In this document: positions 5,019 through 19,758 of the stretch, piece by piece
Layout of the letters: each line of letters begins with the position of its first letter
How positions within the stretch are numbered: the first letter of the stretch is position 1
From: a virus
Reading direction: 5' to 3' (one strand)
IMG/VR virus record: IMGVR_UViG_3300048588_000362
Coordinates: 1 to 35,068 of that record
DNA length: 35,068 nucleotides
Notes under the pieces: model-generated
Databases searched by the model: none
What the model saw: the letters and a program-made list of their open reading frames with translations, nothing else
What the model was told of the DNA's origin: nothing
Made by a program: the position numbers and the translations under genes

Positions 5019-5048
5019 TTGACATCCATTATTGACACATGCTATGAT
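5019..5048 (+). promoter_or_regulatory. Sigma70-type promoter for the HTH gene
   Basis: TTGACA at 5019-5024, 18-base spacer, TATGAT at 5043-5048 preceded by TG (TGCTATGAT, extended -10). A second TTGACA at 5032-5037 is too close to serve. Predicted start near 5055, giving a leader of about 28 nt with an AAAGGAG site before ATG 5083. Confidence 0.8.
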
Positions 5049-9016: not shown

Positions 9017-9958
9017 ATGACCGACCACGCAAGACGACACCTAATAGACGAACGCCCGATAACTCTCACGCCCACGCTGATCAAGGTCTGGGGATTTGAG
9101 CAGGCAACCGTGCTGCAACAGTTCCATTGGCTACTAGGGCAACCGCGAACCGGCATCGATCACGATGGGCGAAAATGGATCTGGGGCACCTACGAAGAAT
9201 GGTGCAAAGACTTCTTCCCGTTCTGGGAGGGCCGCACGCTGCGCTACCACATAGGAAGGCTTAAGAAATCAGGTGTTTTGCTTGCCAAGCAATTACGAAA
9301 AGAGGAGTGGGATCGGACCAACTATTACACTATCGACTACGACAAATTCGACGCAACGATGCGGCAACATTCGGCCACATCGAGCGGGCCGGAAGCGGCC
9401 ACATCGAGCGGGCCGGAAGATGACGCATCGAAGGGGCCGGAAGATGACGGTTCATTAAAAGGAACTAATAAGTCTTCTAATAGATCATCTAATAAGTCAT
9501 CTGATGTAGGTAAGACGATCACAACTGATCGCGCGAATCAGGACATTCGTCGTCGTCGTCAGCCATCTACCCCGGCGAAAGATGGTTCTGCAAAACCAGA
9601 CCCCTTTTACGCCGAAATGCAAACCGCCATCGAAAGCAACGGCTTTGGCATGATGACCCCCATTATGGCCAGCGAAGTCAAAAAGATGATCGCCACCTAT
9701 CCCGCCGAATGGATCAGAGAGGCTATGCGAATCGCGGTAAGTAGCAACGCGCTAAGGCTCGCCTACGTCAATGGCGTTTTGGAAAACTGGCAACGTGAAG
9801 GATTTAGCTACGACAGTCGCAAACATCACAGCGACAGAAAGGGATCAACGAATGGAGCCACTAAGCGAACTAATCAACAAGGAACTGGCAAAGATGAACC
9901 CGCCGACGACTACCACGCCAACGCCTGGTACGCCAACCTTGGCACGCCCAGCGTATGA
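9017..9958 (+). CDS. DnaD-like phage replication initiator
   Basis: A 313-residue protein. The N terminus (about 15-115) is a winged-helix domain of the replisome-organiser type (IKVWGFEQATVLQQFHWLL, then RTLRYHIGRLKKSGVL). The middle (about 118-175) is a low-complexity linker encoded by tandem repeats (SGPE units, then NKSS units). The C terminus has a DnaD domain with the typical AYVNGVLENWQREGF end (about 250-264). Such proteins bind the phage origin and recruit the helicase loader, which here is encoded by the next, overlapping gene. Start at ATG 9017. Confidence 0.82.
   Translation: MTDHARRHLIDERPITLTPTLIKVWGFEQATVLQQFHWLLGQPRTGIDHDGRKWIWGTYEEWCKDFFPFWEGRTLRYHIGRLKKSGVLLAKQLRKEEWDRTNYYTIDYDKFDATMRQHSATSSGPEAATSSGPEDDASKGPEDDGSLKGTNKSSNRSSNKSSDVGKTITTDRANQDIRRRRQPSTPAKDGSAKPDPFYAEMQTAIESNGFGMMTPIMASEVKKMIATYPAEWIREAMRIAVSSNALRLAYVNGVLENWQREGFSYDSRKHHSDRKGSTNGATKRTNQQGTGKDEPADDYHANAWYANLGTPSV
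9372..9443 (+). repeat. Three tandem 24-bp repeats inside the DnaD-like gene
   Basis: Units at 9372-9395 and 9396-9419 are identical. A third at 9420-9443 matches at 18 of 24 positions. Each contains the core CATCGA(G/A) and GGGCCGGAAG. They encode the eight-residue SGPE units of the linker. In lambda and several Gram-positive phages, iterons of this kind inside the initiator gene are the replication origin. Confidence 0.75.
9467..9502 (+). repeat. Three AT-rich 12-bp tandem units, possible DNA unwinding element
   Basis: Units AATAAGTCTTCT (9467-9478), AATAGATCATCT (9479-9490) and AATAAGTCATCT (9491-9502) follow the 24-bp repeats directly. They are strikingly AT-rich in a high-GC gene. They encode the NKSS/NRSS repeats. 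The array of GC iterons plus AT-rich 12-mers has the usual build of an origin. Confidence 0.65.
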
Positions 9959-16903: not shown

Positions 16904-17001
16904 CGACAACGCCGCCGGTTCTGACCCCGACGGCGTTGTCTGACCAGTAACCGTGAGTGAGACGGCGACCGGCTCCGCAAATCGTAACACAGCCGCCCCG
17001 T

Positions 17002-17019
17002 CTCCCTGAAACCAGGGAG
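17002..17019 (+). promoter_or_regulatory. Hairpin that buries the ribosome site of the FtsK-like gene
   Basis: CTCCCT (17002-17007) pairs with AGGGAG (17014-17019), which is the ribosome site for TTG 17026. The loop is GAAACC. Together with a TTG start this should keep translation low or make it conditional. Confidence 0.45.
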
Positions 17020-17025
17020 CACCTT

Positions 17026-18696
17026 TTGCGCACATCCATCTGGCCCCCATTTTTCGCCTTCATCCTGGCCCTGCTGCTCATGATCTGGGCCTACAATCCC
17101 AGCTACATCGCCGCGACGCTGATCTTCATCGGCGCATGGTTCACCATGCTGCTCTATATCGCGCTGGTGGCTATCGTCGGCGCGCTGATGGTGCTAGCCT
17201 GGCTTGTCTATGCCAGAATCCAGAACCAGCAGAACCGCCCCGTAGACGGTGCCTACCCACTGCAACGCTTCCGCGTGCGCGGCGGGCGGACGGTCGTCAT
17301 CAACCCAACCCACATGATGAGCGCGGCCGCGGTCATTGACCGCCGCACCGGCGACTACACCGAAATCGAGCACCCCGCCGGCTGGGATGTCGTTGCGCCC
17401 CTCCGCCATGCCATCGAGCGCAGCAATAGCATTCGCGCCATGTTCCCCGGTGATGCGGCGCGGATGAACCAGAACGGTGCCATGTCGCGGATGCCCAGCA
17501 TGGCCGGCGTGCGCCAGCTCGAAGCCAAGGCGCCGGCCGCGCCGCGGGTGGTCGGCGCGCCGCCGCCCGTTGAGCGGGTAGCGCCGCCGCGCGAACCGCT
17601 CAGCCTGCCCGCCGCCTTCAAGCGCAGCGAGCCGGAAAAGTGGATCATCGGCCAGAATCCCGAAGCCGGTACCCTGGCCACCATCCAGCCCCGCCAGAGC
17701 GTGCACGCCGGCATTATCGGCGCGACCGGCACGGGCAAAACCGCGTCGCTCGGCTTCCTCATTGCCGCCTACGCCATCCGCCACGGCTGGCACACGGTCA
17801 TCCTTGACCCCAAGGGCGGCGCGGACTGGGAGCCGTGGAGCCGGCACGCCGAGTGGCACGAAAGCGACCGTACCACCTTCCCCGATCAGGTACGCGCCAT
17901 CGAAGCCGAGCACGACCGCCGCTATGCCACGGTCAAGGCCGCCCACGTGCCCGATGTGGGGCAACTGCGCACCCCTCCGCCGCCGGTGTTGGTGGTGGTC
18001 GAAGAATATGGCGATCTCATTGACCAGCTGCGCAAAGCCAAGCGCAGCGAAGCCGAGGCGGTCGACACGATGCTTGACCGGCTGTTGCGGCTTAGTCGGA
18101 TGACCGACATTCATCTGCTATTCATTGACCAGTATCCAGAGCACTGGAGCAACCAGGTGATTGCCGGCACGAAGGCCAAAGCGGTGTTTCAGTTGGGGCC
18201 AAACCAGGGCGCGAAGCTCGAGGAGTACAAGGCCAGCAAATTACCCGACTGTGGCCGCTTCCTGCTGCGCGGCAAAGAGTACGACGCCTGGCACGTTGCG
18301 CCCGACGTGGCCGGCATCCTGCGGGCGTTGCCGGCGCGGCGTGGGGTAGATATCGTGGGGGTGCAGTATGGCGTGGATGGTGTTCAGGATGGCGTTCGCG
18401 ATGGGGGTGGGCGGTCAAATACACGAGACAGCGACACGGGCGAACGGGCGAACGAACAACCCGCCCCCAAATGGGATGACGTAACCGCCGCGTTCTTCTC
18501 CGCTCATCCCGACCTGCTAACGGGGCCGGCCCGTGGTATCACCGACCTGGCGCGACTGATGGCAGAGAGCGAGGGCAACGCCAAGCCGCACACGGCGTAC
18601 AAGAGCATTGCGCACGCCTACTTCCACCAGTTCCGCGCCGCCGTGCGCTTGCCAAGCGGTGCCCCGCTGGGCGTTGACGTGACGGAGGCACGCTAA
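17026..18696 (+). CDS. FtsK/HerA-like membrane-anchored DNA translocase ATPase
   Basis: Start set at TTG 17026 because of the GGGAG site; a GTG at 16957 without a site would add 23 residues. The 556-residue form has two or three membrane segments (about 8-23 and 28-63), a linker with a Pro/Ala-rich part, and a RecA-like motor: Walker A GATGTGKT (about 232-239), LDPKGGADW, and Walker B VLVVVEE (about 321-327). The C terminus carries a small helical domain. FtsK/SpoIIIE-type pumps move double-stranded DNA across or near membranes. In a phage it could act in DNA entry, segregation of an extrachromosomal form, or packaging. It is not the terminase. Confidence 0.82.
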   Translation: MRTSIWPPFFAFILALLLMIWAYNPSYIAATLIFIGAWFTMLLYIALVAIVGALMVLAWLVYARIQNQQNRPVDGAYPLQRFRVRGGRTVVINPTHMMSAAAVIDRRTGDYTEIEHPAGWDVVAPLRHAIERSNSIRAMFPGDAARMNQNGAMSRMPSMAGVRQLEAKAPAAPRVVGAPPPVERVAPPREPLSLPAAFKRSEPEKWIIGQNPEAGTLATIQPRQSVHAGIIGATGTGKTASLGFLIAAYAIRHGWHTVILDPKGGADWEPWSRHAEWHESDRTTFPDQVRAIEAEHDRRYATVKAAHVPDVGQLRTPPPPVLVVVEEYGDLIDQLRKAKRSEAEAVDTMLDRLLRLSRMTDIHLLFIDQYPEHWSNQVIAGTKAKAVFQLGPNQGAKLEEYKASKLPDCGRFLLRGKEYDAWHVAPDVAGILRALPARRGVDIVGVQYGVDGVQDGVRDGGGRSNTRDSDTGERANEQPAPKWDDVTAAFFSAHPDLLTGPARGITDLARLMAESEGNAKPHTAYKSIAHAYFHQFRAAVRLPSGAPLGVDVTEAR

Positions 18697-18700
18697 GCCC

Positions 18701-18729
18701 TTGCCAGGCCGGCCGGCGTGCGGTACAAT
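18701..18729 (+). promoter_or_regulatory. Strong promoter with no following gene (ncRNA promoter)
   Basis: TTGCCA at 18701-18706, a 17-base spacer, TACAAT at 18724-18729, only 4 bases after the FtsK-like stop codon. Predicted start near 18736. The only downstream element before a strong terminator is about 130 nt of structured, non-coding sequence. Confidence 0.7.
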
Positions 18730-18735
18730 GGCCGC

Positions 18736-18869
18736 AGGCGGCGTGTGACAGAAGAAGCCGCGGCTAGAAGAGTTGCCAACAATTAGCGAATCTCTGACAG
18801 CGGCGCGAGTAATTGCGTGCCGCAAGATGTATCAAAAAGGCGAGCCTCAGCCAGCTCGCCTTTTTGTTT
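18736..18869 (+). ncRNA. Candidate small RNA, about 130 nt
   Basis: Bounded by a near-consensus promoter and a strong intrinsic terminator. There is no open frame longer than a few codons with a ribosome site. It can fold: a GC-rich pairing near the start (GGCGGC with GCCGC segments at 18737-18765), a hairpin GCGGC...GCCGC at about 18800-18823, and the terminator stem. Regulation or target unknown. No known RNA family recognised. Confidence 0.55.
18834..18869. terminator. Intrinsic terminator, works on both strands
   Basis: A 12-bp perfect stem (AAAAAGGCGAGC at 18834-18845 with 18854-18865, 8-nt loop) with T tracts on both strands. It ends the candidate small RNA. Confidence 0.85.
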
Positions 18870-18954: not shown

Positions 18955-18983
18955 TTGCTATTTTTGATTAAATATTGTATAAT
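18955..18983 (+). promoter_or_regulatory. Promoter for the gene at 19023
   Basis: TTGCTA at 18955-18960, 17-base spacer, perfect TATAAT at 18978-18983. The -10 overlaps the left arm of the inverted repeat at 18964-19009. Confidence 0.75.
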
Positions 18984-19009
18984 CATCTTATCAAACAATA
19001 TTTAATCAA
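18964..19009. repeat. Perfect 15-bp AT-rich inverted repeat over a promoter (operator)
   Basis: TTGATTAAATATTGT at 18964-18978 is exactly complementary to 18995-19009, with a 16-base spacer that contains most of the -10. It is an AT-rich island in a GC-rich genome. The position over the -10 and the start point fits repressor binding or a transcript-start hairpin. Confidence 0.75.
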
Positions 19010-19022
19010 ACAGGAGCGAACG

Positions 19023-19298
19023 ATGAGCACAATCACAGTCAAAGTCAGCCAGAAGAATTTTGCCAAGGGTGTCAAGTATGCCAAGACATTTGGCGGCAAG
19101 TACGACGGGGGCAGCAAGACTTGGACAATCCCAACCCACCGCAACGGCGTGTACAACAACGCCTGCAATGCCCTGGGCAACTATGGGCTGATCGAAGTGA
19201 GCCGCAGCGAAGGCAGCCAAGCCGGCGCGGTTGTCGCCACCGGCGATCATGACGGCAACTGCCCCGCCAACTTCGGAGGCGCTTGTGAGTGCAAATAG
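19023..19298 (+). CDS. Small protein with F-x-x-G...W-T motif (91 aa)
   Basis: ATG 19023 behind CAGGAG. The N terminus (about 1-60) forms one module: ITVKVSQKNFAKGVKYAKTF then GGKYDGGSKTWTIPTHRNGV, resembling the small beta-alpha modules that read G-x-x-W-D...K-x-W in many phage and DNA-metabolism proteins. The C terminus is glycine/cysteine-rich (NCPANFGGACECK). It is tightly controlled, judging from its operator-covered promoter. Function unknown. Confidence 0.65.
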   Translation: MSTITVKVSQKNFAKGVKYAKTFGGKYDGGSKTWTIPTHRNGVYNNACNALGNYGLIEVSRSEGSQAGAVVATGDHDGNCPANFGGACECK

Positions 19299-19725
19299 CC
19301 ACGGAGGAGCAGGCCGCGGCCAGGGGCGCAAGCCCCTGGCGGAGCCGGTCACGACGAAATGCTTTACGCTCTTTGAGCGGCAAGCCGGGTACACGAGCGA
19401 GCAGATCCGGTCAATCATCGACCGACACGAAGTGGAGTACAATCGGGAGTGGGTCACGCTGTGGGAAGACAACGCCGGCGGGCTGTGGCTGGTGGACACG
19501 GCGAGAGCAGCGGCCTGGAGCGTTGGATCTAGCAACTTCGTGGCGGATGCGTCGGACTTGTGGATTGGCCAGACCGACGCATGGGAGACCGACAGTCACC
19601 CATACGCCGAAGCGGTTGAGCAACAGGACGGAATCAAGCTTGTGGCAGAGTACAGCAACGGGGAAGCAAAATTCTACCCCGAAGAAATGGGTAGCGCAGC
19701 GACAGAGTACTGCTTCAAGTCTTAA
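19285..19725 (+). CDS. Hypothetical protein (146 aa)
   Basis: Starts at GTG 19285, overlapping the end of the previous gene, with GGAGG 6 bases upstream. It begins VSANSHGGAGRGQGRKPLAE, a basic GxGRKP-type N terminus common in phage DNA-binding proteins, then FTLFERQAGYTSEQIRSIID and a beta-rich, acidic remainder (GGLWLVDTARAAAW, LVAEYSNGEAKFYPEEMG). No family recognised. Followed directly by a strong terminator. Confidence 0.63.
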   Translation: MSANSHGGAGRGQGRKPLAEPVTTKCFTLFERQAGYTSEQIRSIIDRHEVEYNREWVTLWEDNAGGLWLVDTARAAAWSVGSSNFVADASDLWIGQTDAWETDSHPYAEAVEQQDGIKLVAEYSNGEAKFYPEEMGSAATEYCFKS

Positions 19726-19758
19726 AGAGAGGGCAGCCAAGTGGCTGCCCTCTCTTTT
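19724..19758. terminator. Bidirectional terminator between convergent operons
   Basis: A perfect 15-bp stem (19724-19738 with 19743-19757, 4-nt loop AAGT), followed by T residues on the plus strand and TTTAAG on the minus strand. It closes both the plus-strand early region and the 15-kb minus-strand virion operon. Confidence 0.9.

Follow-up and report, generated by a model that had tools for sequence, protein, structure and literature searches.

A predicted transcription-unit boundary and candidate small RNA behind the early operon of an uncultivated temperate phage

Introduction

In its classical form, a small RNA gene combines a promoter of its own, a length of 100-200 nt and a Rho-independent terminator (PMC9438474). 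Phage-encoded small RNAs form an established class, and the trans-acting PreS of phage lambda and VpdS of phage VP882 are short noncoding RNAs located between phage genes (PMC12197685). MicX-type small RNAs stem from mRNA 3' ends and have their own promoter (PMC9438474); they lie directly after a stop codon and share the terminator of the operon, with the known cases being backed by conserved sequences and transcripts. A related build is the lambda pR'-tR' leader (lambda 6S RNA), where a promoter, a short leader and an intrinsic terminator follow the last early gene. A -10-like pause element among the first transcribed bases is a defining element of Q-dependent promoters (PMC6606751). Here, we describe a gene-free stretch of a phage genome whose layout resembles these systems, and weigh what it may encode.

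Results

The window, i.e. the whole stretch of DNA analysed (35,068 bases of the viral collection record IMGVR_UViG_3300048588_000362), is a temperate phage or prophage that encodes a tyrosine integrase, an FtsK/HerA-like ATPase, adenine methylases, a DnaD/DnaC-like replication module and a P22-type coat protein. The early genes occupy the + strand from ~7.7 to 18.7 kb, an operon of ~11 kb running from replication to the FtsK-like gene, and the structural genes lie on the - strand, read from 35 down to 20 kb. The gap studied here lies directly 3' of the FtsK-like gene, the final one in the early run, whose TAA stop codon is at 18694-18696 (Table 1). A near-identical contig, L014, bridges the right end of the window (35068) and its left end (1) via 4.7 kb (673-5420 of L014) with genes that read as terminase-, portal- and head-protein-like. 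Because L014 joins both ends, the phage genome is judged to be circular or circularly permuted, at ~39.8 kb. A search of the window for tRNAs and tmRNA returned none.

Table 1. Positions of features at and around the studied gap (window coordinates).
Feature	Position	Strand	Remarks
FtsK/HerA-like ATPase gene	16957..18696	+	last in early operon; Pfam FtsK_SpoIIIE E 4.6e-7, DUF87 E 4.7e-7; phrog_1358 E 1.5e-12
Sigma70-type promoter-like site, TTGCCA-17-TACAAT	18701..18729	+	10/12 matches; one of just 5 sites with at least 10/12 in the window
Predicted RNA, ~130 nt	18736..18869	+	body a long interrupted hairpin (~18738-18822), then the terminator; z -3.3 for the whole, only -1.7 for the body; no Rfam match
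Intrinsic terminator, 13-bp perfect stem, 8-nt loop, T-tract	18833..18866	+	no other strong + strand terminator from 7.7 to 18.9 kb
Same stem read in reverse, GGCGAGC...GCTCGCC TTTTT	18833..18866	-	would halt transcription from the late side
Second promoter-like site, TTGCTA-17-TATAAT	18955..18983	+	10/12; would serve the next gene independently
Palindrome, 21-nt arms (90%)	18963..19010		overlaps the second promoter; likely operator, from sequence
Orphan 91-aa gene, 3' of the terminator	19023..19298	+	no family; no relative past the near-identical contig

The sequence-only reading of this locus had described a near-consensus promoter 4 bases past the FtsK-like stop codon, leading through foldable sequence into a strong 12-bp terminator. 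Both elements held up. The terminator stem is in fact 13 bp and perfect, with arms CAAAAAGGCGAGC and GCTCGCCTTTTTG followed by TTT, and is almost certainly real. A first-pass terminator scan had omitted it, probably because pairing between T-tract and A-tract was counted as stem. Strong terminators occur at three places in the whole window, compared with 0.23 expected from shuffles (both strands). Beyond this stem, the next strong + strand terminator after 7.7 kb is at 19.73 kb, and a perfect 16-bp palindromic terminator at 19724-19757 separates converging + and - transcription units. Since no other strong + strand stop serves the early run, and since the stem doubles as a terminator on the - strand, it probably insulates the early operon against transcription from both sides.

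Promoter-like sites with at least 10/12 matches number 5 in the 35-kb window, with 1.2 expected from shuffles (both strands), when scored against the E. coli consensus, which may not be that of the host. The site behind the FtsK-like gene would start transcription at about A18736, and we consider it somewhat more probably active than silent. Elsewhere, the top match in the window (TTGACA-18-TATGAT, 11/12, 5019-5048) lies at a repressor-like helix-turn-helix gene, and on the - strand, at 2588-2649, the start expected from a promoter-like site coincides with the stem of a strong terminator (CGGGGCCGG...CCGGCCCCG TTTTT). None of 60 dinucleotide-preserving shuffles placed a terminator 60-350 bases behind a promoter of the same strand, whichever strand was read. 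Given this, and the excess of promoters and terminators over shuffle expectation, the unit is not a product of chance.

The sequence between the two elements proved less distinctive. Said to be GC-rich, 18730-18869 has 55.7% GC, below the 60.6% of the window. That the RNA is foldable applies to the whole molecule, but its body without the terminator (18736-18828) folds little beyond shuffles, and the strong score of the whole comes mostly from the terminator. As for an intramolecular antiterminator or self-switching attenuator, blocking the 3' arm of the terminator would cost 14.5 kcal/mol, making such a device unlikely.

Downstream of the terminator, 18955-19010 looks like a repressor-controlled promoter upstream of the orphan 91-aa gene. 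The arms of the palindrome (TTTGATTAAATATTGTATAAT and ATCAAACAATATTTAATCAAA) are very AT-rich within a 61% GC phage, and an exact match to its half-site was found nowhere else in the window. As the next gene has this 10/12 promoter and operator-like palindrome of its own, it does not need the first promoter, which is unlikely to serve it.

With respect to relatives, the RNA region is identical in the one near-identical IMG/VR contig (~25.5 kb aligned), which carries no information on conservation or selection, since it has at most one mismatch in each of two long alignments. For the FtsK-like protein, IMG/VR holds one distant relative, on a contig that ends before the gap, and three bacterial genomes of one family encode relatives with 35%, 43% and 31% identity. 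None of these three cellular loci has the RNA after the FtsK-like gene: in two of them the stop is followed by a hairpin of another kind (L013 and L065, within ~150 bases), and one continues straight into the next gene. The L013 locus reads as a prophage in a bacterial MAG and has a 19-bp perfect hairpin with an overlapping promoter-like site (9676-9728), ~35 bases past the FtsK-like stop. Conservation wherever the FtsK-like gene is kept, which the sequence-only reading had made a test of the RNA, is thus partly contradicted, by relatives of only 31-43% identity. This absence is weak evidence, because the relatives are too distant and small RNAs turn over fast.

Searches for the RNA itself gave little more. 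Three 16-17-base patterns from its body matched, apart from the near-identical contig, only by chance in IMG/VR, none extending longer. Blastn of the unit found nothing useful in phage and plasmid collections, and among 396 genomes from the class of the MAG with an FtsK-like relative it gave 30 weak matches reaching ~70 bases, none spanning the unit and many falling on the generic terminator stem. Used as baits, the downstream gene and the DnaC-like gene retrieved no informative relative, and relatives of the major coat protein (62-64%) have head genes in common with the window, on contigs that match neither the FtsK-like protein nor the RNA.

The suggestion that the RNA acts as a regulator or a decoy found no backing. 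Rfam covariance models, 6S RNA included, had no match above gathering score in the window, and at relaxed thresholds the best sub-threshold hit was BsrF (20.9 bits vs 50). Likewise, a target scan of the 52 phage gene starts, which disregards internal structure, yielded no significant target, with 10 of 200 shuffled RNAs matching the best duplex. We regard a regulatory small RNA having a target as doubtful; this grading, like those of the terminator and the promoter above, is our own estimate and not a computed value.

Discussion

We propose that the stretch 18701-18869 is a transcription-unit boundary. Its hairpin would end the early operon on the + strand and block - strand transcription from the late side. 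The sigma70-type promoter past the FtsK-like stop probably fires alone, which would give a short RNA from ~18736 to ~18866, and we speculate that this RNA would most likely be an orphan base-pairing small RNA. That terminators and promoters are each commoner than in shuffles, and their pair absent from all 60 of them, supports this explanation. A boundary that probably also yields a ~130-nt orphan phage small RNA is the reading we favour, at roughly even odds.

Compared with the classical small RNA gene, the locus has an own promoter by sequence, beyond chance, and a Rho-independent terminator 100-200 nt downstream. The earlier statement that this is the expected build of a phage small RNA therefore stands as far as the non-chance layout goes, but all three FtsK-bearing relatives lack the RNA, and the terminator is explained by the operon end. 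Like PreS and VpdS, the predicted RNA would be short, noncoding and located between phage genes; it differs from them in being predicted from a promoter and an intrinsic terminator in the sequence, and no sequence relation to them was found. With MicX-type RNAs it has in common the position directly after a stop codon and the sharing of the operon's terminator, whereas conserved sequences and transcripts back the known members of that type.

The strongest competing explanation is that the stretch merely ends the operon, as a 170-nt 3' untranslated tail with its terminator, the promoter-like site being silent or due to chance. The hairpin is the sole strong terminator after ~11 kb of + strand genes, two of the cellular FtsK-like loci also have a hairpin after the stop in the absence of the RNA, and the body of the RNA scores poorly as a fold. 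Since the end of the early operon explains the terminator, no new RNA gene is needed to account for it. Yet this leaves the promoter in need of explanation: with shuffles giving 1.2 sites per window over both strands, ~0.002 sites of 10/12 would be expected in the ~110 bases concerned. We regard an operon end on its own as a serious possibility, if a tentative one.

By analogy, the closest build is the lambda pR'-tR' leader, as the window likewise has the last early gene, a promoter, ~130 nt, an intrinsic terminator and then same-strand genes. A constitutive promoter would here give a terminated RNA until a phage factor permits read-through into 19023-19722. Unlike in lambda, however, TANNNT, the -10-like pause element, is absent from the initial transcribed 20 bases (AGGCGGCGTGTGACAGAAGA), the next gene brings a promoter and a likely operator of its own, the structural genes are on the opposite strand, and no Q-type protein, antiterminator family or PHROG was seen among the early proteins scanned, a scan that could miss unfamiliar types. 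Because of the promoter and operator of the next gene and the lack of an antiterminator in the scanned proteins, an antitermination leader is less likely than a boundary with an orphan small RNA, and improbable overall. More improbable still is a constitutive short RNA that would serve this temperate, non-lambdoid phage as a switch where early and late regions meet, be it a leader controlled by an unfamiliar antiterminator or a structured RNA with host RNA polymerase or a chaperone as its binding partner. Finally, translation of a small protein from TTG 18773 is hardly credible: the earlier reading saw no coding frame of note, which holds with the caveat that an open frame of 50 codons starts there; this frame crosses the terminator stem, matches no Pfam family and lacks an evident ribosome site at the proper distance.

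If the predicted RNA is not transcribed, the stretch would be an ordinary two-way terminator separating phage operons. If it is, an uncultivated temperate phage, represented only in a viral contig collection, would contribute a further small RNA, and one placed just where lambda has a regulatory leader RNA, behind the early operon.
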